A DNA stretch of 42,101 nucleotides, taken from contig CAIZNN010000080.1 of assembly GCA_903934285.1 (NCBI GenBank), positions 1 to 42,101 of the forward strand, read 5' to 3'. A program made the translations under genes and the position numbers. Numbering within the stretch: the stretch's first letter is position 1; every line of letters starts with the position of its first letter. The notes below the pieces were generated by a model. It saw nothing but the letters and a program-made list of their open reading frames with translations. It was not told the origin of the DNA and did no database searches. Positions 17,088-42,101 of this stretch are shown here, in pieces. Source of the stretch: Akkermansiaceae bacterium (GTDB taxonomy: Bacteria; Verrucomicrobiota; Verrucomicrobiia; Verrucomicrobiales; Akkermansiaceae).

Positions 17088-17196
17088 GCCGGGAGTGAGA
17101 CAGGCGCAGAGACTTGGACCTGGATCTGGCAAATGATTCGCGCGCCTGTGACCCGCCACTTGGCACGTGCGGTGCCCCGGAGGCAGGGAGCGATGG

Positions 17197-19578: not shown

Positions 19579-19652
19579 TTTGTTGGCGTTCAAGGGGGGA
19601 TAACCCATCCGGGGCACATCAGGCTGGCCGGCGCAAGCCGGCACACCGCATG

Positions 19653-26425: not shown

Positions 26426-26636
26426 GGCCGAGTCAAAGCCAGCAGTGGCCGCAGTGCAAGCGCCGAAAATGCTGCCTAATGAATGCCACAAGGCGGCGGG
26501 CGGGCGACATCTGAGGGGATGACCGCGCGAGTCAAACCCGATTGGGCGTGGCGGAAATTTGAAAAGAAACTGGAAAATCGTGGCTGGAACCGTAGAGCTA
26601 GTGGCAGCAATGGTTTTTTCAGATGATTCTCGCGCC

Positions 26637-29600
26637 ATGAACAAAATTCCCCACTCGCTCCGCCCCTGTGTCCTGGCCTTGGTGGCCGCGGTTTTCAGCA
26701 TGCAGGGGGTCCAACCGGCGCAAGCCGTCACTTGGGATTTTGCGGCGGCGCTGGCCACAGGACGGGATTCCCACACCCTGACGCCACTGGCCACCGGCAA
26801 GGTGCTGGTGGCCGGGGGGCGGAATACGGCCGGCACCGCCCTGGCGAGCGCGGAGGTGTACGATGCTGCCACCGACACTTGGACGGCGGCGGCAGCCCTC
26901 ACCAGCGCCCGCTACTGGCACACGGCCACCTTGTTGCTCAATGGCAAGGTGCTGGTGGCTGGCGGTTTCACCGGCTCCACGTCGCTCGCCAGCGCCGCTT
27001 TGTATGATCCGGCCAGCGGCGCGTGGACGGCCACCGGTGCCATGACGCAAGCACGCGACTCCTTCACGGCGACCTTGCTCGCCAGCGGCAAAGTGCTCGT
27101 CGCCGGCGGCTACACCGACAGCGGCATCACCGCCAGCGCGGAACTTTACGACCCGGCCACCGGCGTCTGGTCAAACGCCGGAACTCTAACCACTGCCAGC
27201 GCCAACCACACCGCCACCCTGCTTGCCAATGGCCAAGTGCTCGTCGTGGCTGGCGAACACAGTCCGGAAGTCGGCAGCGCACGGGCCGAGCTTTATGATC
27301 CGGCCAGCGCCACTTGGACGGCCACTGCGGCGCTGGACGCGCCCTGCTGCTATCACACCGCCACCTTGTTGCCCGACGGCAAGGTGCTCGTTGTCGGCGG
27401 GAAAGCCGATGACACCACGGCGCTGGCCACGGCGCAGTTGTATGATCCGGCCGCCGGCAGTTGGACCGGCACCGCAGGGCCGGGCGGCGGGCGCTTCGAT
27501 CACAGCGCGAATTTGTTGCCCAACGGCAAATTGCTGGTGCTCGGCGGGTATGACGACACCAGTGGGATGCTAACCAGCGCCGAACAATACGACTACCTCA
27601 CCGGCACTTGGAGCGAGCTGGGTTCACTTGCCACCGCGCGGATGGATCACACCGCCACTCTGCTGCCCAGCGGCAAGCTCCTCATTGTGGCGGGCTGGGA
27701 CGACAACAGCGGCTCGCTGGCGAGCTCCGAGATGCTCGATCCGGCCACCGGCTTTGCGGCCGCCACCGCAACCCTGCCGTCCGCGCGGGCGCGCCAAGCG
27801 GCCACATTGATGGCGAATGGCAAGGTGCTGCTGGCCGGCGGCTCTAACGGCTCGGCCCTCGCCACCACCGATCTCTACGATCCGGCCGCCGGCACTGCCG
27901 TCGCCGGCAGTCCGCTGGCCGCCGCACGCCATCTGCACACCCTCACCCAACTGCAAACCGGCCAGGTGCTGGTGGCCGGCGGCAACAGCGGAACCGCCAG
28001 CCTCACCAGCGCCGAAGTATACGACCCGGCCGCCGCCACCTGGGCCGCCACCGGGGCGATGGTGGGCAGCCGCGAACTCCACACCGCCACGGTTCTTCCC
28101 GATGGCAAGGTGCTCGTCGCGGGTGGTCAATCCGCCGGCACCTCCCTCGCCACCGCCGAGCTCTACAATCCATCCAGCGGCACTTGGACCGGTGCCACCG
28201 GCATGGGCAGTGCACGGCAGGAACACACCGCCACCCTTCTGGCCAATGGCAAGGTGCTCGTCGCCGGTGGCAAAAATGGCACAACCGCCCTGGCCAGCGC
28301 GCAGTTGTATGATCCGGCCACCGGCGCCTGGAGCGCCACCGCATCGCTGACCACCGCCCGCAGTGGGCACGCCGCCACCGTGCTGGCCGATGGCCGGGTG
28401 CTGGTGACGGGCGGCTTGGCAGGAACCACCTATCTATCAAGCTGCGAGATATATGATCCTGCCAGCGGCCTGTGGGCGGCCACCGGCGCGTTGGCCGGGG
28501 CCCGCAGTGCCCACACCGCGACCCTGCTGGCCACTGGCAAGGTGCTCATCGCCGGGGGTGCCAACGCCAGCGCCGCCCTGGCCACCATCGAGTTGTTTGA
28601 TCCGGCCACGGCAAGCTGGGCGGCCGGCGGCACGCTTGGCAGCCTGCGCAAGAATCACACCGCCACGCGGCTGCCGGATGGCCGGGTGCTCATCGCCGGC
28701 GGGGTGAGCGGTGCCATCTATCATGCCAGTGCGGAGTTATATGATAGCGGGCTGGGCTATCACAGCGCGTGGCAGCCGCAGCTCGATGCGTCGGCCGCCA
28801 CCCTCATGCTCGGCAACAATCTGGCGCTCACCGGCAGCGGCTTCCGCGGCATCTCCGGCGGCTCGTCCGGCACCACCCAGGATGCACCCGCCAACCTCCC
28901 CACGGTGCAACTCTACAACGTCGAAAGCGGCCGCAGCGTGGCGCCCGCCACCACCGGCTGGACCGACTCCTCGCTCGCCTCCGCCGCCTTTGTCGGCTTG
29001 CCGGCCGGCACCGCAATCCTCACCCTCACCGTCAATGGAATCCCCGGCGCCGTTCTAACACAAGTATCGAAGGCCGCCGCCGCCGTCAGCCTCAGCGGCC
29101 TCTCGCAAGCGGTGGACGGTGCCCCCAAGGAGGTGACGGCAACCACGACCCCCGCAGGGCTGGCAGTGACGGTCACATATACTGGAACGGGCTACCCGAC
29201 CTCGACCACGCCGCCCACCGCCGTGGGCACCTACACGGTGGTGGCCACCATCACCGACCCGAGTTACACCGGCAGTGCCACGGCCACCCTGGTTTTGAGC
29301 AACGCCACCCCGTTCATCGCCGGCACGGCGCTGGGCACAACCCGCCGCTATCATACCGCCACCTTGCTGAACAATGGCAAGATCCTGGTGGCCGGCGGGC
29401 ATAACGGCCTCGTTCTTGCCACCGCGGAGTTATATGATCCTGCGACCGGAGTCTGGACCACCACCGGCTCGCTGCTTGCGGCACGTTATAACCATACCGC
29501 CACCCTGTTGCCCAATGGCAAGGTCCTGGTAACCGGAGGGGCCGGACCCGCTTCGCTTGCCAGTGCGGAGTTGTATGATCCGGCCACCGGAACTTGGAGT

Positions 29601-32093
29601 ATTACCGGAACCATGCTTGTTGCCCGCACCAACCACACCGCCACCCTGTTGATCGATGGCAAGGTGTTGGTGGCCGGCGGCCAAACCATCGGCAGCGCCT
29701 TTCTCCTGAGTGCGGAGTTGTATGATCCGGTCGCCGGGACCTGGGCCCTAACTGGATCGATGCCCAACGCGCATTACACTCACGCCGCCGCCCTGCTGCC
29801 CGACGGCAAGGTGTTGGTGACCGGCGGCATGGGGGGGCCGTCCAGCATCAGCAACACCCTGCTGGCCAAAACCGAGTTATATGATCCGGCCACAGGCGCA
29901 TGGACCGCCAAGGGCGACATGATAACCGCCCGGCAATTCCACAGCGCCACCCTGTTGCCCAATGGCAAGGTGCTCGTCGCGGGAGGCTGGGGCGGCAACC
30001 CGAACCTGCCGTTTGTCAGTGCCGAGTTATATGATTCCGGCGCCGGCACCTGGACGGCAACCGCCGGCATGAAAAGCGGGCGCTACTATCACACCGCCAC
30101 CCTGCTGCCCAATGGCCGGGTGCTGCTGGCCGGCGGCAAAGGCGTTGTGCTCGCGGTTCCCGGCGCGCTCGCCAGCGCCGATATCTACAATCCGGCCAAC
30201 GGCACCTGGGCGGCGGTGACCGGTTCGCTCGTCGCCAAGCGCTACGACCACACCGCCACCCTCCTGGCCACCGGCAAGGTGGTGATTGCCGGCGGCTTCA
30301 GCGGCGCCAATCCGGTGCTGGGCACCGTCGAGTCATATGATACGGCGCTGGGCACATGGTCGGCCAGCGCGGCGGCGGGCACTGCCCGCAGCCGCCACAC
30401 CGCGACGTTGTTGCCGGATGGGCGGGTGCTGGCGGCCGGTGGCTGGGATGGCACCACCACCCATGCCGGCAGCGAGCTGCACAATCCGGCCACCGGGGCG
30501 TGGGCACCCGGCACGGCGCTGCTCACCGCCCGGCGCGACCACACCGCCACCCTTCTAACCAACGGCAAGGTGCTCGTCGTAGGCGGGCGCGACAGCGCGG
30601 CCCTGGCCAGCGCGGAGATCTATAATCCGACGGTGGGGACCTGGGCCGCGGCGGGCAGCCTGGGCAGCGCGCGCTACCTGCACACCGCGACGTTGTTAGC
30701 CGATGGCAAGGTGCTCATTGCCGGCGGCCACAATGCCGGCGGCGCGCTGGTCAGCGCGGAACTGTATGATCCGCTCACCGGGCTGTGGTCGGTTACCGGA
30801 GCGCTGGCCGTCGCGCGCGATTCCCACACGGCGACCTTGCTAACCAATGGCAGGGTGTTGGTTAGTGCGGGTGACCATGGCGGGGTGCTGCTGGCGAGTG
30901 CGGAGTTATACAATCCCGCCACGGGCCTGTGGACCACCACCGGCAGCCTGTCCGGCGCCCGCAAGGGGCACGCCGCCGCGCTGCTGCCGGGTGGCAAGGT
31001 GCTGGTGGCCGGCGGCATCAATGGCGCCACCTATCAGAACAGCGGGCAACTCTACGATCCCGCCACCGGCAGCTGGGCTGCCACCGGGAATCTTGGCGGG
31101 GCCCGGGCCTATCATGTCGCCACCTTGCTGCCCAATGGCAAGGTGCTCATCAGTGGCGGCAGCGGCGCTGGCGGCGTGACTGACACGGCGGAGTTGTTTG
31201 ATCCGGCCAGTGCCAGCTGGCAAGCCACCGGCATGCTCGGCACCAAGCGTGAATCCCACACCGCCACGCTGCTGGCCAGCGGGCGGGTGTTGGCGGTGGG
31301 CGGCAGCGGCAGCGCCGGCGCCGGCGCCTTGAACACCGCGGAGACCTATGAGGTGGGCCTGGGGTTCAGCGCGGTATCCCAGCCGGTTCTCACCAGCGTG
31401 CCAGCCTCACTGGTGCCGGGAGCAAGCCTGACACTCGGCGGCACCCGCTTCCGCGGACTGTCCGGCGCCTCCGGCGGCAATGGCGCCCAGAACTCGGCGA
31501 GCGATTTGCCGGTGGTCCAGTTGCGGGCGCTGGACAGCGGCCTGACCACCGTGCTGCAACCGGCGAGTTGGTCGGCCAGCGCGTTATCGGTCGCTGCGGT
31601 CACGGGTTTTCCCGAGGGTCATGTCTTGGTGACGGTTTTCGTCAATGGCATTCCCGGCAGCTCGGCGATCATGAAAATCGCGAAGATCGATCCACCGCCG
31701 TATGAGATTTGGAAGCGGAGCAAATTCAGCACCGGCGAGCTGGCAGACCCGGTGATTAGCGGCGACACCGCCGATTCCGACCACGACGGCGTCATCAACC
31801 TGATGGAGTATGCCCAGGCGCTCGAGCCCAAGCTCAGCGACGCCGCCGGCCAGCCCGCTGCCGGCCAGCACGATGGCTATCTAACCATGACGTATCGTTT
31901 GAACAAGCAAGCCACGGATGTGCTCATCCTCGTGGAGGCGAGCAGCGATCTAACTGAAGGCTCGTGGTTCCCGGTGGCGGTGGAGACCGGCCGCCTCGAC
32001 ATGGGTGGCTACTGGCTGGTGACGGTAAGGGACGGCGCGTTGCTCACCAGCGCCCCGCACCGCTTCATGCGCCTCCAGGTGAAGACACTCTAG
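26637..32093 (+). CDS. Giant secreted Kelch/galactose-oxidase-like protein
   Basis: An 1818-residue exported protein with a signal peptide ending Q-P-A-Q-A (about residue 30). Block one (about 30-700) has 14 Kelch motifs of ~48 residues, each with a form of LPNGKVLVAGG. A galactose-oxidase C-domain-like sandwich (about 700-810) and an MBG/Ig-like domain (about 813-890) follow. Block two (about 891-1570) has 14 more Kelch motifs, then a second sandwich (about 1571-1685) and a C-terminal module (about 1686-1818). That module has DSDHDGVINLMEYA, GYLTMTY and the end RFMRLQV. Seven Kelch motifs make one propeller, so four propellers are expected. The Cys and Tyr copper ligands of galactose oxidase are not evident, so a binding or structural role is likelier. 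The start at 26637 gives the signal peptide. Confidence 0.9.
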   Translation: MNKIPHSLRPCVLALVAAVFSMQGVQPAQAVTWDFAAALATGRDSHTLTPLATGKVLVAGGRNTAGTALASAEVYDAATDTWTAAAALTSARYWHTATLLLNGKVLVAGGFTGSTSLASAALYDPASGAWTATGAMTQARDSFTATLLASGKVLVAGGYTDSGITASAELYDPATGVWSNAGTLTTASANHTATLLANGQVLVVAGEHSPEVGSARAELYDPASATWTATAALDAPCCYHTATLLPDGKVLVVGGKADDTTALATAQLYDPAAGSWTGTAGPGGGRFDHSANLLPNGKLLVLGGYDDTSGMLTSAEQYDYLTGTWSELGSLATARMDHTATLLPSGKLLIVAGWDDNSGSLASSEMLDPATGFAAATATLPSARARQAATLMANGKVLLAGGSNGSALATTDLYDPAAGTAVAGSPLAAARHLHTLTQLQTGQVLVAGGNSGTASLTSAEVYDPAAATWAATGAMVGSRELHTATVLPDGKVLVAGGQSAGTSLATAELYNPSSGTWTGATGMGSARQEHTATLLANGKVLVAGGKNGTTALASAQLYDPATGAWSATASLTTARSGHAATVLADGRVLVTGGLAGTTYLSSCEIYDPASGLWAATGALAGARSAHTATLLATGKVLIAGGANASAALATIELFDPATASWAAGGTLGSLRKNHTATRLPDGRVLIAGGVSGAIYHASAELYDSGLGYHSAWQPQLDASAATLMLGNNLALTGSGFRGISGGSSGTTQDAPANLPTVQLYNVESGRSVAPATTGWTDSSLASAAFVGLPAGTAILTLTVNGIPGAVLTQVSKAAAAVSLSGLSQAVDGAPKEVTATTTPAGLAVTVTYTGTGYPTSTTPPTAVGTYTVVATITDPSYTGSATATLVLSNATPFIAGTALGTTRRYHTATLLNNGKILVAGGHNGLVLATAELYDPATGVWTTTGSLLAARYNHTATLLPNGKVLVTGGAGPASLASAELYDPATGTWSITGTMLVARTNHTATLLIDGKVLVAGGQTIGSAFLLSAELYDPVAGTWALTGSMPNAHYTHAAALLPDGKVLVTGGMGGPSSISNTLLAKTELYDPATGAWTAKGDMITARQFHSATLLPNGKVLVAGGWGGNPNLPFVSAELYDSGAGTWTATAGMKSGRYYHTATLLPNGRVLLAGGKGVVLAVPGALASADIYNPANGTWAAVTGSLVAKRYDHTATLLATGKVVIAGGFSGANPVLGTVESYDTALGTWSASAAAGTARSRHTATLLPDGRVLAAGGWDGTTTHAGSELHNPATGAWAPGTALLTARRDHTATLLTNGKVLVVGGRDSAALASAEIYNPTVGTWAAAGSLGSARYLHTATLLADGKVLIAGGHNAGGALVSAELYDPLTGLWSVTGALAVARDSHTATLLTNGRVLVSAGDHGGVLLASAELYNPATGLWTTTGSLSGARKGHAAALLPGGKVLVAGGINGATYQNSGQLYDPATGSWAATGNLGGARAYHVATLLPNGKVLISGGSGAGGVTDTAELFDPASASWQATGMLGTKRESHTATLLASGRVLAVGGSGSAGAGALNTAETYEVGLGFSAVSQPVLTSVPASLVPGASLTLGGTRFRGLSGASGGNGAQNSASDLPVVQLRALDSGLTTVLQPASWSASALSVAAVTGFPEGHVLVTVFVNGIPGSSAIMKIAKIDPPPYEIWKRSKFSTGELADPVISGDTADSDHDGVINLMEYAQALEPKLSDAAGQPAAGQHDGYLTMTYRLNKQATDVLILVEASSDLTEGSWFPVAVETGRLDMGGYWLVTVRDGALLTSAPHRFMRLQVKTL

Positions 32094-32407: not shown

Positions 32408-33095
32408 CTAACAGACTAACAGCCGCCGTCAGATCCTACCTTGTCACCCGGCATTCACCCCGTCCGAACCATTAACCAAAGCGAATCTTCGCACGAATTC
32501 TCGCATCGCACATGAAATGTTCGCATGAATCCTCTTTGTGCCTTCCATCTACCAGCCCCGCCGCCGTCATCGGCAAGGTTTTATGCGGGAGCCAGCTGGC
32601 GGGCTTGAACCGACTACTTGCTGATCCCGGATTTTGGCGGCAAACCGGTTTATCCTAGAAAGGTGTGGAATGTTGAGTAACTGCCCAATCCTCACCGCAA
32701 AGCCGCAAAGGTCGCTAAGGGACGCGGAGCCAGACAGGATTTTTCTCGATAACCCATTCCCCTTTGCGCCACTTTGCGCACTTTGCTCTCCGAACCGCCC
32801 TTTAGCCCCTCATGCGCAGCAACCGCGAAAAGCAATATTCCGGAGTCGGGGCAAATCGGATAAAGGGACAGAGATACAGTCCGAACGAACAGACCGGCAA
32901 CGGGTATTTCCTGGAAAAGGGCTTTGCTAAATCACTTGCCGATGCTAGACCCTTCTTCAACACGGACTGCCATGCTCAAGCAAATCTCAAAACGTTCGTT
33001 AATGGATTTTCGCAATAGGAAATCCGTGTGGAAGGATTGCGGATTCGAGCAAAGGATCGATGCCGTGGTAGATATTTCCCAAGCTGGAGACAAAC
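32408..33095. other. Gene-free accessory stretch
   Basis: No convincing gene is seen in these ~690 bases. Composition is less GC-rich than the core. The only structure recognised is the pair of GCAAAG-type arms at 32691-32790. Short open frames here lack protein-like patterns. Confidence 0.5.
32691..32790. repeat. GCAAAG-type imperfect inverted repeat
   Basis: The left arm near 32691-32721 repeats gcaaag-like units (ctcaccgcaaagccgcaaag). The right arm at 32761-32790 holds their complement (cctttgcgccactttgcgca). The arms pair imperfectly over about 25 bases around a ~40-base loop. Similar GCAAAG strings are dispersed in many bacterial genomes; the function is unknown. Confidence 0.5.
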
Positions 33096-33212
33096 ATGGA
33101 GAAGCTCAACCAAGACTTCCGCGAGTTTATCGGATTACTCGAAAAACATGCGGTTGAGTATCTAATAGTCGGTGGCTATGCGGTGGCGTTTCACGGGTTT
33201 CCCCGTCACTGA
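33096..33212 (+). pseudogene. N-terminal fragment of MNT-like nucleotidyltransferase
   Basis: A 38-residue open frame reads MEKLNQDFREFIGLLEKH, then Y-L-I-V-G-G-Y-A-V-A-F-H-G-F-P-R-H and a stop. V-G-G-Y-A-V-x-x-H-G-x-P-R is the start of nucleotidyltransferase-fold proteins in the MNT/AbiEii-like group, where T-x-D-L-D-x-W-V should follow with the catalytic Asp pair. That part is missing, so the gene is truncated and inactive. Such proteins often belong to toxin-antitoxin modules. A HepT-like fragment lies 5.6 kb downstream (38773-38955) but is of a different partner type, so they need not derive from one operon. Confidence 0.75.
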
Positions 33213-33438
33213 GAAAGCTGCTTGGCAAGGATTGATCCTAAATGCAAGAATGGAATTGGCTGGCGGCTGGCTCGCTGGCTCACTGCCAATCCATTCATTC
33301 CGGGTCAGAGTTTTTCCGCGCATAGGCGCAAAGTTTTTCAGAATCAAAAAATCCCGGTTTTTGGCAAAACGCTTTATTCGCGATTGCCAAGTATGGCTTG
33401 CCCGTGGACATGCTGAGGCAGCCGTCGGGCCCGCCGGT

Positions 33439-33520
33439 AACACAACCAACCGGCTTCGCAAAGGGCAATTGAAACATCCTTGAAATTGCTAGAAAAATAT
33501 ATTTTATTTTTCTCGACTCG
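33439..33520 (+). promoter_or_regulatory. Shared upstream element of PEP-CTERM genes, copy A
   Basis: Bases 33439-33475 match 37457-37493 with one mismatch; the common core includes aacacaaccaaccggc and tcgcaaagggcaattgaaac. An AT-rich stretch (ttgaaattgctagaaaaa, then tattttattttt) and the shared cgactcgggg (about 33514-33523) follow. The downstream ATG at 33568 is also preceded by the same words (actcatgaaac) as in copy B. It probably contains the promoter and untranslated leader; no classical -10 box is certain. Confidence 0.6.
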
Positions 33521-33567
33521 GGGGCGGGGGGGTGGCTAAAAAGCGGTTTTACGCGATTGTGATACTC

Positions 33568-34359
33568 ATGAAACTCCTAAAACCCCAAGCATTGATGAAA
33601 TCGAAAAACCCCACGAAACGGCCTAAGATGTTGCTCAATCAAGGACTGCTGACCGCGCTTGGCTCGGCCGTCGCGGCCACCCAGGCGGAGGCGACCTTGG
33701 TGGGTTTGGGAGGCTTCAGCGTTAGCGGCACCGACAACACACTCCTTGTAGCAGGCAGTGGTGTGCTGACGCTGAATCACCGGTCTTTTAGCAACTCAGG
33801 ATCCCCCGGAACCTCTGACGGATACGGGAACTATAGTGGTGGAAGTCCTGGGTCTCGAAATCGCACCGGTTCGGCCGTTGGACAGGCGATGGCCTCTGCA
33901 CGGAGAGGTGCGGCAGCATTCACGGTCGGCGCTGGGTTATTTACTAGCAGTGGCCCTCTGTCGAAAATCATTTTTTCTACCTATAATAGCAATAGAGGTA
34001 CTAACTCCGGTAACGCGGTGGACGGGAATGATAACTACATTCCAGTGAAATTCAGCGTCCCGGGCCTCAATTTAGGGAATCCTCTCTACGGCCTGGCCCA
34101 GGTCGGGTTCAACCAGGGAGACACGACGCTTCTCAACTTCTGGTATTCGGACAACGGCTCGGGAGTCCAGTGGGATGGCGCGCAGGCGTCGGAACTTGCT
34201 GCCATTCCGGAGCCCGGCAACTTGCTGGCTACCGGGATGTTGCTGAGCATGGCGGCCTTTGTGCGCAAGCGCCACCGGCGGCCGGACGCCCAATCGTTAG
34301 GCGCGCTTGCCGCCGGAGTGGGCGGGTTGATCGCCCGCGAGGATGAATCCGCCGCTTGA
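33568..34359 (+). CDS. PEP-CTERM surface protein with unusual C-terminal tail
   Basis: A 263-residue exported protein. The hydrophobic signal region (about 25-45, LLTALGSAVAATQAEA) follows a basic leader, and a Gly/Ser/Asn-rich beta-type middle is without known domain. The sorting signal starts near residue 213: IPEPGNLLATGMLLSMAAFV then R-K-R-H-R-R. PEP-CTERM proteins normally end a few residues after the basic cluster and are processed by an exosortase; here 24 more residues follow, including LGALAAGVGGLIARE. The last 17 bases overlap the phosphodiesterase gene, so the tail may have arisen by fusion. The start at 33568 is preferred because the same atgaaac context follows the upstream element at 37572. 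Confidence 0.8.
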   Translation: MKLLKPQALMKSKNPTKRPKMLLNQGLLTALGSAVAATQAEATLVGLGGFSVSGTDNTLLVAGSGVLTLNHRSFSNSGSPGTSDGYGNYSGGSPGSRNRTGSAVGQAMASARRGAAAFTVGAGLFTSSGPLSKIIFSTYNSNRGTNSGNAVDGNDNYIPVKFSVPGLNLGNPLYGLAQVGFNQGDTTLLNFWYSDNGSGVQWDGAQASELAAIPEPGNLLATGMLLSMAAFVRKRHRRPDAQSLGALAAGVGGLIAREDESAA

Positions 34360-37198
34360 AGACGAGGTGAAAAACCGCCGGGTGTTGTTGATCGGCTGGG
34401 ATGCGGCCGATTGGAAGATGATTCATCCCATGCTGGATGCCGGCAAATTGCCGGCCTTAAAAGGGCTGATCGAGGGCGGGGTGATGGGCAATCTCGCCAC
34501 GCTCACGCCGATGTATTCGCCGATGCTGTGGACCTCGATTGCCACTGGCAAGCGGCCCTACAAGCACGGCGTGCACGGGTTTTCCGAAGTGGACCCGGCG
34601 TCGGGTGACGTGCGTCCAATCTCCGGCGCCTCGCGGCATTGCAAGGCGCTTTGGAACATGCTCAGCCAGGAGGGCAAGCGCTCGCTGGTGATCGGCTGGT
34701 GGCCCAGCCATCCCGCGGAGCCGATCAACGGGGTGATGGTGTCCAACCACTATCAACGGGCGGGCGGCAAGAACATCGCGGAGTGGCCGATGGCGCCCGG
34801 CACCGTCCATCCGGCGGATCTGAGCGAGCCGCTCAAACAACTGCGGATGCATCATGCCGACATTGGCGAAAATCATCTGCTGCCATTTGTGCCGGAGGGG
34901 GCGACCATTGACCAGGCCAAGGACCGCCGGCTCCAGTCGCTGGCAAAGATTGTGGCAGACTGCGCCAACATCCAAGCGGCAGCCACCTTTCTCATGCGCC
35001 AGGGGCCGTGGGACTTGATGGCGGTGTATTTCGATGCGATCGACCACTTCGGTCACGGGTTCATGAAATACCATCCGCCACGGCAGGATCACATTTCTGC
35101 AAAGGACTTCCAACTCTATCAAGGAGTGATGGAGGCCGGCTACCGGTTTCATGACATGATGCTCTCCGCGCTGCTGCGCCTGGCCGGCGATGACGTGACG
35201 GTGGTCCTGATCTCAGACCATGGCTTCCACCCGGACAATCTGCGCCCGACCGCACTGCCCGCCGAGCCTGCGGGGCCGGCCCACGAGCACCGCCCGTATG
35301 GGGTTTTCGTGGCCAAGGGGCCGGGAATCAAACAGGACCAAACGGTGTTCGGCGCTTCGTTGTTAGATGTTTGCCCCACACTCCTGACCCTGTTCGGCCT
35401 GCCGGTGGGCGAGGACATGGACGGGCGGGTGCTGACGGATCTATTTGAAGACGATTTGGAACCGGAGACGATTCCGAGTTGGGAGGCCCGCGAGGGCCAT
35501 GCCGGAATGCACGGCGATGCGGCGGCGTTGGATCCCGCCGCGATGCGCGCGGGCATGGACCAACTGGTGGCGCTTGGCTATGTGGAGGCCCCCACCGGGG
35601 ATCGTTCGCAGCAGATGATGGCCACCAACCGTGAACTGGACTATAACCTGGCCAAGGCCTTCATGGATGGCGGGCACTTCGCGGAAGCACTCGGAATCCT
35701 GACCGGCTTGCAGCAAGCCAGCCCGGAGGATTTCCGCTTCCATCTTGCCCGGATCGACAGTCTTGCCGCCTTGGGCAACCGGGCGGAGGCGGCACAGGCA
35801 ACCGATGCGTTGATCGTCCTGCGCGAGAGGGTGGCCGAACGCAGCAAGGAACCGTTAGACCGGCTGCTCCGGCGGATCAAGCGGCTGAAACAAGCGCTCG
35901 ATGTGAGCGCCCGCCGCCCGGATCTTCACCCGCGGTTTGAGCAACGGATGAGGCGGGCGCGGGCCCGGCTGCAACACCTCGCGCCCTTGGCGAATATCCC
36001 GCAAGAGGGCATGGCCCAGTTGCGGATCCGCGCCGCCACCATGGCCGGGCGCATTGACGAAGCACTCGCATTGACCGGCGAAATGGGTGAGCAAGCCCGG
36101 AACCGCACCGACTACCATTTGATCCGCGCCGACTTGTTGGGCCGGAAACAAGCAATGGATGAAGCAATCGCGGCTTACCATCGGGCGTTGGAAATCGATC
36201 CCGAGTGCCGGGCCGCCTGGTCGGGGCTGGCGCGGGCGCTGATGAGAAACAAGGATTGGGCCGGTGCCGAGGACGCGGCGAGGCGGGCGACGGGGTTGCT
36301 ATTTCAGCATCCCCAGGCGCACTATCTGATAGGAGCCGCCTGCTGGTTCCAAGGCAAACCCGCAGAGGCCTGCGTGGCACTGGCGCATGCGGTGAAACAA
36401 GCCCCGGGCTTCATCCGCGCCTTCCGCTTGCTGGCCCGTATCACGCGCCAGCATCATCCCGACCCGCTGTTTCACGCCGTGTTTCGCTCGCGGGCCGAGC
36501 GCTTGGTTTTCATGGCCCGCTCTCGCCAGGGCGGCTTGGCGCAGCTCGGCGATTTCGACCGTTCCCGGGTGCTGCCGTTTCCGGCGGCAAGCGCAACCAC
36601 CGAAGCACACGCGGTCATCACCATCGTCACCGGCCTGCCGCGCAGTGGCACCTCCTTGATGATGCAGATGCTCGCTGCGGGCGGCTTGCGCCCTCTAACC
36701 GATGAGGCGCGCCAGGCGGATCCGAGCAATCCGCGCGGATATCTGGAATACCAACCGGTCATGGCGATTGCCAGGGATGCCTCGTGGATGGCCCAGGCAC
36801 GCGGCAAGGTGGTGAAAATCGTGGCTCCGCTGTTGGTGTTTTTGCCGGAGCAGGACGCCGATGGGCGGGCATTTCACTATCGGATTGTGTTCATGAACCG
36901 CGACTGGCGGGAAATCCACGCCTCCCAGAGCCGCATGATCCAGCGCCGCGGCGAGGCCGGCGCCAGCCGCAGTGTGACCGGCTTGAAGCATGCCTTTGAA
37001 CAGCAATTGCAGCGCGTCCGCTCGCGGATTGTCCAACAAAACATCGCCGCACTCGACATCCACTACGCCGAAGCAATCGCCAATCCGGCAGGAGTGGCCG
37101 CGTCCCTGGCGGCGTTTCTGCCAGGCTTTGATGCCGCCGCCGCCGCGTTGTCCGTCGATCCCGCGCTGCACCACGAGCGGGTGGCTGGTAGCGGATAA
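34343..37198 (+). CDS. Phosphodiesterase-TPR-sulfotransferase fusion protein
   Basis: A 951-residue protein without signal peptide. Domain one (about 12-380) is of the alkaline phosphatase superfamily, type I phosphodiesterase group: VLLIGWDAADWKM (metal Asp), YSPMLWTSIATGKRP (region of the nucleophile), YFDAIDHFGHGFMKYH and LISDHGFHPD. The middle (about 445-720) is tetratricopeptide-like helices, clearest at AIAAYHRALEIDPECRAAWS. Domain three (about 755-940) starts with VTGLPRSGTSLMMQML, the PAPS-binding P-loop of sulfotransferases, and has VFMNRDWREIHASQ. It may act on a sulfated or phosphorylated surface glycan or protein. The start overlaps the PEP-CTERM gene by 17 bases; GTG at 34368 is an alternative. 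Confidence 0.85.
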   Translation: MNPPLEDEVKNRRVLLIGWDAADWKMIHPMLDAGKLPALKGLIEGGVMGNLATLTPMYSPMLWTSIATGKRPYKHGVHGFSEVDPASGDVRPISGASRHCKALWNMLSQEGKRSLVIGWWPSHPAEPINGVMVSNHYQRAGGKNIAEWPMAPGTVHPADLSEPLKQLRMHHADIGENHLLPFVPEGATIDQAKDRRLQSLAKIVADCANIQAAATFLMRQGPWDLMAVYFDAIDHFGHGFMKYHPPRQDHISAKDFQLYQGVMEAGYRFHDMMLSALLRLAGDDVTVVLISDHGFHPDNLRPTALPAEPAGPAHEHRPYGVFVAKGPGIKQDQTVFGASLLDVCPTLLTLFGLPVGEDMDGRVLTDLFEDDLEPETIPSWEAREGHAGMHGDAAALDPAAMRAGMDQLVALGYVEAPTGDRSQQMMATNRELDYNLAKAFMDGGHFAEALGILTGLQQASPEDFRFHLARIDSLAALGNRAEAAQATDALIVLRERVAERSKEPLDRLLRRIKRLKQALDVSARRPDLHPRFEQRMRRARARLQHLAPLANIPQEGMAQLRIRAATMAGRIDEALALTGEMGEQARNRTDYHLIRADLLGRKQAMDEAIAAYHRALEIDPECRAAWSGLARALMRNKDWAGAEDAARRATGLLFQHPQAHYLIGAACWFQGKPAEACVALAHAVKQAPGFIRAFRLLARITRQHHPDPLFHAVFRSRAERLVFMARSRQGGLAQLGDFDRSRVLPFPAASATTEAHAVITIVTGLPRSGTSLMMQMLAAGGLRPLTDEARQADPSNPRGYLEYQPVMAIARDASWMAQARGKVVKIVAPLLVFLPEQDADGRAFHYRIVFMNRDWREIHASQSRMIQRRGEAGASRSVTGLKHAFEQQLQRVRSRIVQQNIAALDIHYAEAIANPAGVAASLAAFLPGFDAAAAALSVDPALHHERVAGSG

Positions 37199-37456
37199 GG
37201 GGCAGTGGAAATGAAGATCGGATTATGGGACTGAGAAATTATCCACTTTCGGGGTGACAAACCTTGTGAATTCGAGCTGGCAAAACCACGGGGCATCGGC
37301 GAGAGTTTGCTTGCCATGAGTTCCATGCCTATTCATCTCAAGCTCACCGCCACCTATGAGCCTGCAGCGGAAGGCACCTCACATCGCCACCTTTGAAGAG
37401 ATAGCAAACCCAAGACGAATGGTCTGGCACTCTTCAGGGCCGTCAGGCCCGGCGGC
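37199..37456. other. Gene-free stretch after the fusion gene
   Basis: About 260 bases with no open frame that looks like a protein and no strong hairpin. It separates the fusion gene from the second copy of the PEP-CTERM upstream element. Confidence 0.5.
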
Positions 37457-37541
37457 AACACAACCAACCGGCATCGCAAAGGGCAATTGAAACGCTTGAA
37501 TAATGTTAGAGAAAACATTTTGATTTATCCCGACTCGGGGG
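37457..37541 (+). promoter_or_regulatory. Shared upstream element of PEP-CTERM genes, copy B
   Basis: Second copy of the element at 33439. Identity is near complete at 37457-37493, then partial, with shared gaaaa-rich and tttatt words and cgactcgggg (about 37531-37540). The ATG at 37572 follows 79 bases after the core, against 93 in copy A. Two independent PEP-CTERM genes sharing it suggests co-regulation. Confidence 0.6.
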
Positions 37542-37571
37542 GGGAGCGTGTGTCACACGATTGTAAAACTC

Positions 37572-37909
37572 ATGAAACATCCCATCATCCCCCCCTCGGG
37601 CTGGCCGTTCTGGCCGGCGCTTCGCTCGTCACTCCGGCTTTGGCCTCGCTCAGTATCGACTACGTCAACGTCGGCGACGCGGGCAATACGGCGGACCCGG
37701 CCACCGGCAGTCTTTACGGCTCGGTGGGATACGCCTACAACATCGGTAAATACGAGGTGACCAACGCCCAGTATGTGAATTTCCTCAATACCACGGCTCA
37801 AACTGACAACTACTCGCTCTACAATGCGAACATGTCCAGCTACGGCATCACTCGAGCAAACTCATCCAGCGGCTTGCTGCTGCGGAGACGTGGCAAGGTT
37901 TCCCTTTAA
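37572..37909 (+). pseudogene. Truncated, frameshifted FGE-like PEP-CTERM gene
   Basis: The start of an exported formylglycine-generating-enzyme-type (SUMF1 fold) protein. The first codons (ATG at 37572, M-K-H-P-I-I-P-P) lie in one frame. After a run of seven C (37589-37595) the protein-like reading continues in another: L-G-L-A-V-L-A-G-A-S-L-V-T-P-A-L-A, a signal peptide end, then YAYNIGKYEVTNAQYVNFLN, the typical start of the SUMF1 domain. One extra C would restore the frame. The frame also breaks off after about 95 residues (SSSG, then unrelated codons to a stop at 37907). So it is disrupted twice. Either a decayed gene or, for the C run only, a phase-variable tract or sequencing error. Confidence 0.75.
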
Positions 37910-37933
37910 TCCTGTATTCCTTTGTCCTTTGAA

Positions 37934-38025
37934 TTGTAGCGGCGGTCTATGACCGTCGTTGCTTTTGTGTGGCAAAGGAGTTTCTTCTTCTCATGGGCTG
38001 CGACGCTCACAGAGCGCCGCTACAA
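37934..38025. repeat. 92-bp palindromic repeat element
   Basis: The outer arms ttgtagcggcg (37934-37944) and its complement (38015-38025) are perfect. Inside are two smaller hairpins: cggcggtc-tat-gaccgtcg and cgctc-aca-gagcg. It resembles short non-coding palindromic elements dispersed in Verrucomicrobia-type genomes. Confidence 0.6.
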
Positions 38026-38064
38026 CACGCCGCCGCAGGCGGTCGGTTTTTTTTTCTCACGAAA

Positions 38065-38370
38065 ATGAAGCCACCCGGAGCTGAAGCGCCCATCGTACTG
38101 GTGAAGTGGTATGCCTACGCCAAATGGGTGTTAGAGCGGGTGGCGGGTTTTCCCAAGAGCGAGGCGGATGAGCCGTTTTACACAGGGATGACTTCTGACC
38201 TGAGACGACGATTCGAGGAGCACAATGCCGGGCAAGTCGCCTCAACCAAACACCGGTTACCATTCCGACTTGTGTATTACGAAGCGTGTGTGAGTCAACC
38301 CCCTTTTCCCCGCCCTCCGGTCCGGCCACCGGCTCTTTCAACGGCCCTCACCTCAAAAGCTATTTCCTAA
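38065..38370 (+). pseudogene. GIY-YIG nuclease-like fragment
   Basis: A 101-residue open frame whose core FYTGMTSDLRRRFEEHNAG, followed by Q-V-A-S-T-K and P-F-R-L-V-Y-Y-E-A-C, matches small stand-alone GIY-YIG endonuclease domain proteins (Y-x-G-x-T-x-D-L-x-R-R-x-x-E-H-N). After Y-Y-E-A-C the expected C-terminal helix with E-K-x-L-K is replaced by codons of the dispersed repeat at 38299-38342. The N-terminal strand pair is also interrupted by an extra ~20 residues (WYAYAKWVLERVAGF). The gene is therefore truncated by a repeat and probably inactive. Confidence 0.7.
38299..38342. repeat. 44-bp dispersed repeat, copy 1
   Basis: It is nearly identical to 39303-39346, beginning cccccttttccccgccctcc and ending tttcaac, with an internal ccggtccggccaccgg palindrome. 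It lies inside and cuts off the GIY-YIG reading frame. Confidence 0.7.
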
Positions 38371-38458
38371 CGAGGCGGTGCCTCAGACCAGGCGAGATGT
38401 AGGTTGGCAGCCTGGGACGGTTGGGATCCATGGTGGCGTTGAGGCACCGCCTCGTTAG
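38367..38458. repeat. 92-bp element with perfect 19-bp inverted ends
   Basis: Arms are ctaacgaggcggtgcctca (38367-38385) and its exact complement (38440-38458). Each arm is itself a small palindrome (gaggcggtgcctc). The total length, 92 bp, equals that of the element at 37934-38025. A single half (gaggcggcgcctcagacc) follows the Kelch gene at 32095. No target duplication is evident. Confidence 0.7.
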
Positions 38459-38613
38459 TTTGTTGTTACCACCGGGGCGGCGACACTTCCGCGGGCGGGT
38501 GGTGTCCGGCTGGAGCTGCAGAGCGGCAGCCTTTGGCAATGCCGGATTGAGCCGTCGAAGCGGCTGGAATTCTCCGGGTTCGGAGTGTATCAATAGTCCA
38601 ACCAGACACCGCC

Positions 38614-38768
38614 ATGAACCTACCCCATTCCGTCGCCGAAATTCAAGCCGAAAACGTCACCCTCGAACTGGAAGGTATCGCCCGCATGTGCCTCAACTGC
38701 TACGTGCCGCAATTGACCAGTGCCGGCGGGGTGGCGGCCTATTTCCGCAACTACAAGGGCCACCGCCG
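38614..38768 (+). pseudogene. N-terminal fragment of an uncharacterised protein family
   Basis: From ATG 38614 the frame reads MNLPHSVAEIQAENVTLELE, then G-I-A-R-M-C-L-N-C-Y-V-P-Q-L, then GGVAAYFRNYKGHR. I recall a widespread uncharacterised family that begins this way (I-D-R-M-Y-L-N-x-Y-V-P-x-L, F-F-R-x-x-x-G-H) and runs to several hundred residues. Here it stops being recognisable at about 38768, where the opposite-strand HepT-like fragment begins. It is truncated. Confidence 0.55.
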
Positions 38769-38772
38769 CCAT

Positions 38773-38955
38773 GATCAATCCGGCCACGTCATCATTGTAG
38801 GTGTGGGACGACTCGTTGCGATGCTCGATCATCTTCATCCATGCCTCGCCGTCCTGGAGCAGTTCGGCGGCAAAGGCCGCGCGGGTGGCGTCCCTCGATC
38901 CATAGAGCTTCGCCGAGGAACCGCGGGCGCTAAGAAAATCTTTACAGTGACGCAT
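38773..38955 (-). pseudogene. Fragment of HepT/HI0074-like nucleotidyltransferase partner
   Basis: The minus-strand frame reads C-K-D-F-L-S-A-R-G, then KLYGSRDATRAAFAAELLQD, then GEAWMKMIEHRNESSHTYND. Y-G-S-R-D-A-T-R-x-A-F, W-x-x-M-I-x-x-R-N-x-x-S-H-T-Y is the core of the HI0074/HepT-like (NTase_sub_bind) family, whose R-N-x-x-S-H-T-Y motif belongs to the active or AMPylated site in related toxins. The N-terminal helix pair and the C terminus are missing. It abuts an IS630-like fragment on one side and the 38614 fragment on the other. Confidence 0.75.
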
Positions 38956-38957
38956 AA

Positions 38958-39203
38958 GATATATGCTTTCCCGAAAAAGTAGCTCATTATCCTTTGAGGG
39001 TGCTTCTGAATACTGTGCATAAACGATGCCATGTTAGCTTTTGGTTGTGCGATTGTTCCTGGTGTCTTCTCTGAGTTTGCGTTTTTCTTTAAATCCCTGT
39101 TCAAGTATTCGTCAGCATTAAGTTCCGGCGAATAGCTTGGGATGAACTCCAATTCAATAGCCCCGTTCTGATCAGTCACCCACTGTCGACTGGTGATGTT
39201 CCG
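38958..39203 (-). pseudogene. C-terminal remnant of IS630-family transposase
   Basis: The minus-strand frame reads IELEFIPSYSPELNADEYLN, then R-D-L-K-K-N, then T-I-A-Q-P-K-A-N-M-A-S-F-M, then H-P-Q-R-I-M-S-Y-F-F. P-x-Y-S-P-E-L-N-x-x-E with a following K is the third catalytic block of IS630/Tc1-like DDE transposases. The upstream frame is closed by a stop at about 39204 and the first two catalytic Asp blocks are absent. It is a truncated insertion-sequence remnant. Confidence 0.8.
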
Positions 39204-39246
39204 TTAGGTACGATGGCGGCGGGCCGCCGTCACCACGGCCTGCGGA

Positions 39247-39267
39247 ACGACACTTGCCGAGTGTCGT
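39247..39267. repeat. Short hairpin repeat
   Basis: Perfect arms acgacact (39247-39254) and agtgtcgt (39260-39267) with loop tgccg. It follows another small palindrome (cggcgggccgccg). Same layout as the hairpins at 3335-3385. Confidence 0.55.
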
Positions 39268-39302
39268 ACGAAGAAGTGAGGAAGCGGGCGCATATGAGGC
39301 AC

Positions 39303-39346
39303 CCCCCTTTTCCCCGCCCTCCGGTCCGGCCACCGGCCCTTTCAAC
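39303..39346. repeat. 44-bp dispersed repeat, copy 2
   Basis: Second copy of the repeat at 38299-38342, 1004 bases further on in the same orientation. The two copies bracket the HepT and IS630 fragments, so recombination between them would delete that interval. Confidence 0.7.
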
Positions 39347-39423
39347 AGCAGCCCCCGAAAGATTTTTTGCAAGAATTTGCAAGAACTTGAGAGCTTAGGC
39401 AGCATCGGTATATTCCCGGTCCG

Positions 39424-39968
39424 ATGGCCAAGCAGTCGCTCACACTCGAATCACTGGAACGAATCGTTGCTGCGGGTGATGATCGGCGGTTGGCGATGGC
39501 TGCGTTGGCGGGACTTCGGGAAGTGGCGGCGGGGGATCACTATTCCGCGATGTGGTTCGACGCCACGAACTGCAAGATTGCGGACTATTTCCTGGATCAA
39601 AGCTGGCTGGCTGCCGATCACACATTTTGGAAGATTGCTCAACGAGGGCTAGCCGAAAGTTCAAAGACGATGAAATTGACACGGTGCGGGGCTACCACCG
39701 GGTGTTGGCGGGCCTGGCTCCATTCCAATCTCGCGCCCCGCGACCAACATGCGAGCCTTCGGTGGCACCCGGTGTCATCGATCCCATGGTGAGGCTCGCC
39801 GCGCTCACGCTGCGCGAGCGGGAAGTTCACCAGTGGTTGAGGCAGGGCAAGCGGGATTTGGAAATCGCCATCCTCCTGGGGATTAGCCAGCGCACGATCC
39901 ACCATCATGTGGCGAGGGTGCTGCGCAAGCTGGAAGTGGACACCCGCACCGCCGCCGCGCTCTATTGA
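39424..39968 (+). pseudogene. LuxR-family regulator, split by a frameshift
   Basis: The N-terminal part (ATG 39424, MAKQSLTLESLERIVAAGDD) runs in one frame to about 39660. The C-terminal part continues in the frame one base back: K-D-D-E-I-D-T-V-R-G-Y-H, then LTLREREVHQWLRQGKRDLE, then ILLGISQRTIHHHVARVLRK and an end at 39968. The latter is a GerE/LuxR helix-turn-helix (L-T-x-R-E-x-E-V, I-S-x-R-T-I-x-x-H). A single lost base near 39655-39665 would explain it; programmed slippage or a sequencing error are alternatives. It is directly upstream of the palindromic promoter and PEP-CTERM gene at 40112, so it is probably their regulator. Confidence 0.75.
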
Positions 39969-39983
39969 GCCTGAAAAACTGGC

Positions 39984-40028
39984 TTGAGAGCTCAAAAATA
40001 GGCAATCCTGCCTATAGACGGTTTTGCC
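39984..40028 (+). promoter_or_regulatory. Palindromic promoter region of LuxR/PEP-CTERM unit 1
   Basis: Just after the LuxR stop lie ttgag-ag-ctcaa (39984-39995), then ataggca-atcc-tgcctat (39998-40015, a perfect 7-bp inverted repeat), then gttttgcc (40021-40028). Unit 2 conserves nearly all of it at 41006-41050. Its place between a LuxR-type gene and its neighbour makes it the likely operator; the start codon is 84 bases on. Confidence 0.6.
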
Positions 40029-40111
40029 CGGGTAGCACAGGATCGCCTCTTGCCGGACAGAGTTGCACCTACGCACGTCACGCCGGAATTCAAATGATCA
40101 CAACCAAACAG

Positions 40112-40792
40112 ATGAAAATGACACTGCCCAACACTTGCCGGTCGCTTGCTTCAATCTTCCTGCGCCGATTTGCCGGACCAGGAATCCTCGCCGCCCTCAC
40201 GATCACCGCAGAGGCGGCGCAAGTCCTGAATCTATCTCTTCAATTCAATCAATCGTCCATCCCAGCAGGAGGCACCGGTTCCGGAACATTCCTGCTGAAC
40301 GGATTTTTCACATGCAACGGCATCGGTGAATCGCCCACTGATTGGTTCCAAAGTTCTTACCAAACCCTCGTAACATCCCTAATGCCTAACGATTGCTATT
40401 TGGATTTCACCCTGGTTCCGGAATCCGGCACGGTTACCTATGATGGTGCACCCTACACCCCGACTTCGGCAAAGTTCTTGCTCAACATCGATACCTCGAT
40501 GGGTTTCCCTATGACCTACGCGGCAGTGACAGTCGGGGGTGACACACCAGTCGTAATCGAAAAACAAGCAGGCTTTTCTGATTTGGCCGGAACATTCACT
40601 ATGACAAACTTCGCTAATGAGTTTATAGTCAGTGATTTGACCAGCGAATTTACGAATGATTACGGAGCTGCGCTTGGGATCGAATCAAGTGAGATCACTG
40701 CGGTGCCGGAACCGGGGAATGTGGTGTCGCTTGCCGCCCTGCTAAGCTCGGCCGCCCTGATCCGCAAGCGCCGGAAAGCCGTAGCCGCTTGA
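40112..40792 (+). CDS. PEP-CTERM surface protein, cargo of unit 1
   Basis: A 226-residue exported protein. It has a long basic leader with a hydrophobic segment (GPGILAALTITAEAA, about 24-38), then a beta-rich middle with two Cys (FFTCNG, NDCYL) and no known domain. It ends VPEPGNVVSLAALLSSAALI followed by R-K-R-R-K. The sorting signal is directed to an exosortase, not in this window. The start at 40112 (MKMTLP) matches the position of the start in unit 2; an in-frame ATG at 40094 is an alternative. Apart from the sorting signal it is not obviously related to the unit 2 cargo. Confidence 0.85.
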   Translation: MKMTLPNTCRSLASIFLRRFAGPGILAALTITAEAAQVLNLSLQFNQSSIPAGGTGSGTFLLNGFFTCNGIGESPTDWFQSSYQTLVTSLMPNDCYLDFTLVPESGTVTYDGAPYTPTSAKFLLNIDTSMGFPMTYAAVTVGGDTPVVIEKQAGFSDLAGTFTMTNFANEFIVSDLTSEFTNDYGAALGIESSEITAVPEPGNVVSLAALLSSAALIRKRRKAVAA

Positions 40793-40794
40793 AT

Positions 40795-40834
40795 CGATGC
40801 TGAGGTCGCGCGATCGATGCTGAGGTCGCGCGAT
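40795..40834. repeat. Tandem 20-bp repeat after the first cargo gene
   Basis: The 20 bases cgatgctgaggtcgcgcgat occur twice in tandem (40795-40814, 40815-40834), 2 bases after the PEP-CTERM stop. The internal word aggtcgcgcga recurs at 41891-41901, 19 bases after the stop of the second cargo gene. Confidence 0.8.
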
Positions 40835-40861
40835 CCACTCATTAAAACACATGTTATCTTG

Positions 40862-40990
40862 CTGCAGGGCAAGCGGGATTTTGAAATCGCCATCCTCCTG
40901 GGGATTAGCCAGCGCACGATCCACCATCATGTGGCGAGGCTGCTGCGCAAGCTGGGAGTGGACACCCGCAGCGCCGCCGCGCTCTATTGA
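40862..40990 (+). pseudogene. LuxR C-terminal fragment, unit 2
   Basis: A 42-codon piece begins GKRDFEIAILLGISQRTIHH and ends AAALY plus stop at 40988. It is almost identical in DNA to the last ~130 bases of the LuxR gene at 39424-39968 (few substitutions). No start codon is in frame and the rest of the helix-turn-helix domain is missing, so it cannot make a regulator. Its left edge near 40862 marks the duplication break point. Being kept so similar, it is either a recent duplication or has been converted by the intact copy. Confidence 0.85.
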
Positions 40991-41005
40991 GCCTGAAAAA
41001 CTGGC

Positions 41006-41050
41006 TTGAGGGCTCAAAAATAGTCAATCCTGCCTATTGACAGTTTTGCC
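41006..41050 (+). promoter_or_regulatory. Palindromic promoter region of LuxR/PEP-CTERM unit 2
   Basis: Copy of 39984-40028: ttgag-gg-ctcaa (41006-41017), then tag-t-caatcctgcctattgac, where gtcaat (41023-41028) pairs with attgac (41036-41041), then gttttgcc (41043-41050). The inverted repeat is shifted relative to unit 1 but tcaatcctgcctat is kept. The start codon lies 91 bases on. Confidence 0.6.
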
Positions 41051-41140
41051 TGGGTTGCACAGCATCGCACCCGTAGCCGATCAGAGCTGCACCTGTGCAC
41101 ATTTCGCCGGTACCGTCATTCCAAACAACAAACCAAAAAA

Positions 41141-41872
41141 ATGAAAAAATCGTATGTCGCAACAATCGTCTCACTGATCGCTGGTCAGGCTTTCGCAGCT
41201 ACAAGCACAACCTGGATTACTCCAACCGGTTCAAGCAACAGCAATGCCAATCTCCCTGCAGGAACTACTTACACGTCGAACTTCGGCATTGCGTTTACAA
41301 CCGGGTCAGACGGTCCGTTCAATATGGACTGGCTGACTCTCGGACTGAGTACTTCCACTGTAACCGCAGGGACGGCTTCGTTAAAGGTGGCCTTGCGCAA
41401 CACGAATAACACCACTGCATACTCCGCCGTGGCAGGAACCACGGAATACGCAATGGACACCGTGACATTTTCCATGCCGACAACTACGGCCACAAATTTC
41501 AACCTTGAACTGGATGCGGCTGAGTTCCCAAATATCTCCGGGTACGTGATGGCGGCGAATACAACGTACGCGTTGATTGTTTACAATCCCACCCAAAATA
41601 TCGGATTGCAGCGCCATACTGGATATGCCAATGGTACGACCAACGACTTCTACACAGTTACCGAAGGGTTTACCGTAATCGACACGTTTCGTAGTAATTC
41701 TGCCAATTACTCTAACAATTCTTCCAGCTTCCCTACCCTTGCGTTCTCATTTGGAGAGATGAGCGCTATTCCTGAGCCGGGGAGCTTGGTATCGCTGTCT
41801 GTTCTGGTAAGTTCAGCCGCATTTCTGCGCACCCGCCGTAAGGCTAGTGCCGCCTCAATCAGCGGCTGTTGA
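41141..41872 (+). CDS. PEP-CTERM surface protein, cargo of unit 2
   Basis: A 243-residue exported protein. It opens with the signal peptide MKKSYVATIVSLIAGQAFA, followed by a Thr/Asn/Ser-rich beta-type middle (for example TWITPTGSSNSNANLPAGTT and YALIVYNPTQN) resembling choice-of-anchor domains. It ends IPEPGSLVSLSVLVSSAAFL followed by R-T-R-R-K. The start at 41141 is clear. The composition is richer in A/T than the core genes, consistent with accessory origin. It is transcribed in the same direction as unit 1 and the next DNA holds a possible IS21-like end. Confidence 0.88.
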   Translation: MKKSYVATIVSLIAGQAFAATSTTWITPTGSSNSNANLPAGTTYTSNFGIAFTTGSDGPFNMDWLTLGLSTSTVTAGTASLKVALRNTNNTTAYSAVAGTTEYAMDTVTFSMPTTTATNFNLELDAAEFPNISGYVMAANTTYALIVYNPTQNIGLQRHTGYANGTTNDFYTVTEGFTVIDTFRSNSANYSNNSSSFPTLAFSFGEMSAIPEPGSLVSLSVLVSSAAFLRTRRKASAASISGC

Positions 41873-41961
41873 CGCGTTCAAGATTATGTTAGGTCGCGCG
41901 AGGTGTTTTGGAGCGGCCTAATCCGGAAACATGGTGGACGACACGCCGCGCGAACTGGGCT

Positions 41962-42101
41962 GTGTGACGACAATTAAAGCTGGTCGCCGACGACAATTAG
42001 AACTGTCCAGTTGGGAGGGCGGTTTTTTGGGGTGATGCAGCATGCTGTTTGACACCGGTTGGGGCGGCGGGTGCTGCTCTGGGGTTGTGGTCAAAAGAAC
42101 C
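41962..42101. mobile_element. Possible IS21-like element end, cut by the window edge
   Basis: The word gacgacaatta occurs at 41966-41976 and again at 41989-41999, 23 bases apart, in similar contexts (aagctggtcgcc and gaactgtccag). Multiple short terminal repeats spaced like this are typical of IS21-family ends, whose tips begin with TG (here tgtg from 41963). No istA or istB sequence is visible before the window stops. Confidence 0.35.

Follow-up and report, generated by a model that had tools for sequence, protein, structure and literature searches.

The 42,101-nucleotide window analysed here is the entire contig C80 of a draft genome (G000; 4.80 Mb in 282 contigs) of an Akkermansiaceae bacterium, phylum Verrucomicrobiota. 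Near its end lie two successive units, W1 and W2, in each of which the remains of a LuxR-type regulator gene, a candidate palindromic operator and an untranslated leader precede a gene for a PEP-CTERM protein. The units are probably parts of a decayed and rearranged accessory LuxR/operator/PEP-CTERM locus, in which the cargo would have been replaced by homologous recombination between conserved arms; a locus shared between species, with its cargo replaced by ordinary recombination, would be the simplest account of the comparisons that follow.

The two units share a direct repeat (39837-40046 and 40859-41068; 94% identity over 210 bases, ungapped, 1,022 bases apart), which chance cannot explain and which covers the LuxR 3′ end, a TTGAG-N2-CTCAA dyad, a TAGGCA-N4-TGCCTA dyad and the leader. 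The original prediction, made from this sequence, called the DNA of the units almost identical; the repeat is real and the wording slightly strong, as the gapped alignment of LuxR tail, intergenic region and leader has 211/229 identical positions (92.1%). All features are on the forward strand, apart from the two candidate operators, whose strand is unassigned. W1 opens with LuxR copy 1, split into an N-terminal part in frame 1 (39424-39650) and a C-terminal part bearing the GerE/LuxR helix-turn-helix (HTH) domain (39651-39968), and continues with the TTGAG-N2-CTCAA dyad (39984-39995), the perfect dyad TAGGCA-ATCC-TGCCTA as candidate LuxR operator (39999-40014), an abutting putative -35-like hexamer, TAGACG (40015-40020), the leader (40021-40093) and the 232-residue cargo 1 with a core of family A (40094-40792; the start codons of the cargo genes, this one included, were chosen by us and are those used for operator distances). 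A 20-nucleotide tandem repeat, ATCGATGCTGAGGTCGCGCG, follows directly 3′ of the cargo 1 stop codon in 2.2 copies (40793-40835). In W2, the last 42 codons of LuxR copy 2 (40865-40990) are followed by the TTGAG-N2-CTCAA dyad (41006-41017), the dyad TAGTCA-ATCC-TGCCTA with one arm altered as candidate operator 2 (41021-41036), an abutting putative -35-like TTGACA (41037-41042), the untranslated leader (41043-41140) and the 243-residue cargo 2 (41141-41872), taken as a PEP-CTERM protein of a family other than that of cargo 1. The TTGAG-N2-CTCAA dyad was seen only in LuxR-linked copies, namely these two and the one on contig C366 of a congener described below. Checked for structured RNA in the leader, the stretch 33000-42101 gave no Rfam family at gathering score.

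Significant alignment between the cargo proteins is limited to 39 C-terminal residues (22/39 identical, E 4e-7), which bears out the view that the two genes differ and are alike mainly in the sorting signal. Cargo 1 exceeds the 16-bit cut-off of the PEP-CTERM sorting domain TIGR02595 (19.1 bits; 23.4 in a genome scan); cargo 2 scores 15.3 bits, and 19.5 in the genome scan, and its C-terminus, judged by eye, has an IPEPGS motif, a hydrophobic stretch and a basic end.

The congener G019 (metagenome-assembled genome, MAG, Umea1p3_bin-495) carries a LuxR-linked allele on contig C366, in the order intact LuxR, the same leader, a PEP-CTERM gene, a sulfotransferase gene and a phosphodiesterase/TPR gene. 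Its LuxR and leader are 98.2% identical to those of W1 over 436 bases, all 230 bases of LuxR tail and leader at 39843-40072 are the same, and identity stops close to the start codon. Similarity resumes at the PEP motif and runs past the stop codon at 97.5% over 118 bases (40694-40811, from ITAVPEP to the stop plus 19 bases); between these arms BLASTN (E<=1e-3) found no match. As background, positions 1-20000 of the window were compared with G019 (40 scored among 200 candidates), yielding seven scored matches of at least 500 bases at 71-81%, five of them at 78-81%; matches below 500 bases, repeated elements among them, reached up to 94%. Because they are near-identical against 71-81% for the long background matches, the arms look recently shared and the core does not, unless C366 is misbinned.

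W1 equals G019 throughout the 230 bases yet is only 92.1% identical to W2, so that W2 is no fresh copy of it. The end of the W2 leader agrees with G019, not with W1, and a 33-base match to the G019 sulfotransferase gene (41928-41960, same direction; 93.9% to L073 2926-2895, E 1e-6; sulfotransferase by Pfam) lies downstream of cargo 2, a remnant which suggests that W2 once belonged to a G019-like sulfotransferase operon. The earlier proposal that a control region had been copied and joined to new cargo is thus right in that the same control region precedes different PEP-CTERM genes, also in G019, and not supported in so far as it makes W2 a recent offshoot of W1. A search for the LuxR-tail/leader DNA in the own genome found no third copy; a 22-base piece with the dyad recurs on the own contig C5, upstream of another PEP-CTERM-like gene. 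The outcomes named as speaking against the original prediction (no further copies, the same cargo pair, or cargo genes paralogous along their full length) were not what was found, as the G019 LuxR and leader precede a different cargo.

The W1 core, in turn, has its relatives elsewhere. It is 42% identical over 232 columns to a full-length family A protein in genome G029 (G029A), and 42% identical over 134 columns to a truncated one, C340a, on contig C340 of G019; each comes with the operator and a leader of related sequence and lacks a LuxR gene directly upstream. The sorting-signal DNA of G029A matches that of W1 in 66/101 positions (65%), which makes it another tail, much as W1 and W2 agree there in 66/99. 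The leader of W1 equals that of G019 to 40072 and turns family-A-like beyond it, near the start codon. W1 is therefore best described as a mosaic with junctions at the leader and the PEP motif, because its arms match G019 while the full-length relative of its core has another tail. The W2 core likewise has a relative of 31-35% identity in G029 with another tail. Both switch points of W1 lie at sites conserved among PEP-CTERM genes, as would be expected from homologous recombination in conserved arms, and it appears that the outer part of the protein was exchanged, with switch and anchor retained.

No intact LuxR gene lies in the window. Copy 1, taken as a gene in the original prediction, is broken: the N-terminal part is read in one frame (39424-39792) and the HTH in another (39552-39968), because the copy lacks 199 bases that are present in the G019 gene, where AGCCGA repeats stand at both sides of that point. 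Copy 2 was rightly described as cut to its last 42 codons (126 nucleotides including the stop), and its four codon differences from the tail of copy 1 all change the amino acid. With both window genes damaged, any regulator would need to be supplied in trans. Intact genes are found on the own contig C5 (248 residues) and on G019 C366 (247 residues), and the GerE HTH scores above the Pfam cut-off of 23.5 bits in the window frame (51.2), G019 (52.1) and C5 (57.1). Among 386 genomes of the order, with about seven candidates scored per genome and a cut-off of E<=1e-18, full-length relatives were found only in G000 (the C5 gene), G019 (three) and G057; G029 has a broken piece of the same LuxR family. 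An AlphaFold model of the regulator is poor (mean predicted local distance difference test, pLDDT, 45.7; predicted template modelling score, pTM, 0.29). At 21 loci in other families that hold distant LuxR relatives (L141-L157, L160-L163), a simple script found no PEP-CTERM open reading frame (ORF) of at least 100 residues, and the flanks, up to about 1.5 kb, held no strict dyad, so the LuxR/PEP-CTERM pairing does not generalise from them. As to mobile origins of the regulator, 26 candidate stretches in the viral_contigs collection yielded no confirmed LuxR relative, and the plasmids collection gave no match at E<=1e-8.

The candidate operator was followed as a composite of the TAGGCA-N4-TGCCTA dyad and the abutting hexamer (TAGNCANNNNTGCCTATWKACR), a pattern written from eight of its own nine matches in the 386 genomes; the reversed control gave none. 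A slightly stricter version, run on a 387-genome sample of the phylum without G019, G029 and G004, matched in G000 only. Eight of the composite matches lie 79-106 bases upstream of the chosen start codons of PEP-CTERM genes or of broken 5′ pieces. A PEP-CTERM end was recognised in at least one scan downstream of five of these (W1, W2, C366, G029a and G029b). The gene behind the C5 operator is a PEV variant, with no TIGR02595 match and 59% identity to the G029b protein; C340a precedes a truncated 5′ piece of family A, and C340b a broken 5′ piece that is family-B-type in its leader. The ninth match, in G004, overlaps the stop codon of a more distant LuxR relative and is followed, in the same direction, by a 704-residue ORF that looks secreted. 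The sequence upstream of the dyad varies (LuxR end, family A type, family B type), so that plain copying alone does not account for the conservation of the dyad. With the transcription start placed 7 bases past the best -10-like hexamer, the centre of the dyad falls at -42.5 or -43.5; LuxR-type activators of class II bind near -42, and the geometry would suit such activation at the predicted start site. The putative -10 is good (5/6) in three family-B-type leaders. The pattern also occurs in ten stretches of viral_contigs, where a script detected no PEP-CTERM-like frame in the 1.5 kb downstream; these matches were taken as chance.

Several observations weigh against this reading. The exact dyad alone, scanned in 145 related genomes, is less frequent than its reversed control (18 matches in 13 genomes versus 34 in 25), and in G000 the dyad with two mismatches shows no excess (284/293 against 307/340). 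Its placing does stand out: all seven exact dyads in G000, G019 and G029 precede PEP-CTERM-type genes or 5′ pieces; the other ten genomes hold 11, of which none has a nearby PEP-CTERM gene by script and one, in G004, stands beside a LuxR gene. The G004 site was known before the composite pattern was written, though not used for it. The putative -10 is weak (3/6) in the LuxR-linked and family A leaders, and neither window leader was picked up in a promoter scan. An intact LuxR without any operator match occurs in G057, which weakens the link between regulator and operator. At E<=1, G000 gives 29 PEP-CTERM matches (the limit is loose: 7/14 control genomes also match, two of them above the cut-off) and only three operators, which would leave a small regulon at most and not a general PEP-CTERM switch. 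The exchange itself is seen in only one locus pair, C366 is a 5.5-kb MAG contig that could be misbinned, and the loci come from metagenomes and lie on short contigs or contig ends.

The sequence comparisons can be accommodated by the following course of events. The accessory locus of which the units are a decayed form, found in a few Akkermansiaceae, would run from LuxR through an operator/promoter and a PEP-CTERM gene to sulfotransferase and phosphodiesterase genes. An EpsA-like LuxR-type activator, here probably acting in trans (for instance from the own contig C5), would bind the TAGGCA-N4-TGCCTA dyad and, placed next to the -35-like hexamer, may switch on the exported PEP-CTERM proteins. 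The leader on one side and the sorting signal on the other would serve as conserved arms, in which homologous recombination between PEP-CTERM genes may replace the signal peptide and the outer part of the protein, a mechanism and a direction of exchange that we infer. Switch and anchor would be kept through the exchange, and the regulator copies would decay in the own genome.

The tandem layout, the LuxR remnants and the exclusively nonsynonymous differences in the second tail would also suit a plain tandem duplication of one LuxR-PEP-CTERM unit, followed by fast divergence of the cargo and decay of the LuxR copies to pseudogenes with no exchange of parts; PEP-CTERM proteins are described as fast-evolving (PMC1569441). 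Divergence in place, however, poorly explains how an unrelated core comes to stand between an identical leader and a tail of 97.5% identity, or why the full-length relative of this core carries another tail. The G019 comparison already disfavours duplication without exchange, and we regard it as unlikely. A technical origin, in which mixed strains or species yielded a chimeric mosaic gene or a misplaced G019 contig, has in its favour the short contigs and contig ends (C366, 5.5 kb; C340, 7.7 kb; C5, 5.9 kb; the window end) and the repeated DNA resembling insertion sequences (IS) at the end of the window. At the junctions, nevertheless, similarity past the arms is confined to short matches, and the repeats flanking the LuxR deletion are 6 bases long, too short for the usual joins of assemblers. 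Even if C366 belonged to the window's own species, there would still be two alleles that differ in cargo. An artefact thus seems improbable.

A dedicated cassette-exchange system, site-specific or driven by gene conversion from silent copies, which diversifies the surface protein of one expression site, could draw on the broken 5′ pieces with operators on G019 C340, the tandem array of related PEP-CTERM genes on the own contig C3 and the second leader pair of the window, which precedes different exported proteins. Set against these are junctions that fit ordinary recombination in conserved arms, and the fact that no recombinase or recombination-site pair was noticed beside the units, although no systematic search was made: the scope was integron core-site strings and chosen ORFs compared with family libraries. 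Core-site strings on the forward strand of 39001-42101 gave two and four single matches and no clear pair around the unit (integrase was not searched). Such a system is thus very improbable, and the original prediction of a cassette system that swaps surface proteins under one LuxR-type regulator is not supported as worded, both LuxR genes of the window being damaged. A dispersed repeat of 74-80 nucleotides occurs at 38296-38369 and 39295-39349 and in many genomes of the genus, most examined copies ending in TTCCTA|GCA; the truncated second copy sits where the homology to the G019 LuxR unit starts (39341). Its reading as an integron attC site, near 38296 and 39295, was rejected as a driver, as no clear attC cores were seen in it and it occurs at many unrelated sites.

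The arrangement favoured here, a shared LuxR/operator/PEP-CTERM locus with cargo replaced in its arms, has partial parallels in known systems. Many PEP-CTERM genes of Proteobacteria that are otherwise unrelated have a conserved DNA element in front of them, and the 2006 survey by Haft et al. reports such an element only in that phylum (PMC1569441). As described there, the sigma-54/PrsK-PrsR system is similar in its common element before unrelated PEP-CTERM genes and in fast turnover (PMC1569441); it differs in having a -24/-12 promoter and an upstream motif, whereas the present loci have a dyad abutting a -35-like hexamer and, beside some copies, a LuxR gene. A -24/-12-like match does lie before cargo 1 at 40039 (7/10 of the consensus, GG and GC present, no chance control), and the leader of cargo 2 has no such match with GG/GC by the same consensus. 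The HTH domain of the regulator has its best NCBIfam match in EpsA (TIGR03020), an XrtB/PEP-CTERM-associated LuxR-type regulator whose association is given by its name. The match is confined to the HTH and scores 51.0 and 62.3 bits against a whole-protein cut-off of 170, and residues before about 184 have no match to TIGR03020. In bacterial antigen loci, the outer parts of surface proteins are exchanged between alleles through conserved arms, and the present locus resembles them in having a different outer part between conserved ends. It differs from them in that no silent store with demonstrated conversion and no immune selection is known, and in that the bacterium is environmental, as far as the records of the congener tell. 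A literature search, with subscription papers mostly outside its reach, found neither this operator nor this locus described.

PEP-CTERM proteins occur in large numbers, and for most of them no function is known. For a small Verrucomicrobiota set, the present comparison puts forward an operator and a regulator as candidates. It also illustrates how such proteins may change their outer part with switch and anchor kept, which could be one reason for their fast turnover. A bolder and rather doubtful extension is that some Akkermansiaceae keep PEP-CTERM expression sites, with a LuxR operator upstream and a conserved sorting signal downstream, that recruit new outer domains across species and have a modification operon attached; if true, this would amount to a regulated, exchangeable surface coat with a sulfotransferase/phosphodiesterase modification operon.

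A phosphodiesterase-TPR-sulfotransferase gene follows a PEP-CTERM gene in four loci (window 34343-37198, L072 1728-4376, L183 3487-6207, the latter judged by eye, and L073 700-3491), fused except in G019, where it is split; the arrangement may be an operon that modifies the exported protein or its polysaccharide. The own contig C5 has a row of PEV-variant cargo, phosphodiesterase-TPR-sulfotransferase gene and LuxR. A second shared leader within the window (33421-33475 and 37439-37493; 55 nucleotides at 93%, 84.5% over 110 bases) precedes a PEP-CTERM gene (33532-34359) and a short, frameshifted FGE-sulfatase-like remnant, again one leader with different exported proteins. On the own contig C3 (L183 1-3009), two full PEP-CTERM genes (80.5% DNA identity to each other) and the end of a third form a tandem array, and on G019 C340 (L074 837-1616) two operator-bearing 5′ gene pieces, both broken, stand head-to-head. 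The window ends in an IS-like terminus with repeated GACGACAATTA motifs (41961-42101); the end of the own contig C107 matches its 141 bases at 100% identity, and several contig ends in the genus resemble it. That the element is of IS21 type is a guess. Further upstream, an 1844-residue ORF (26559-32093) contains many Kelch repeats of about 144 nucleotides and an MBG domain.

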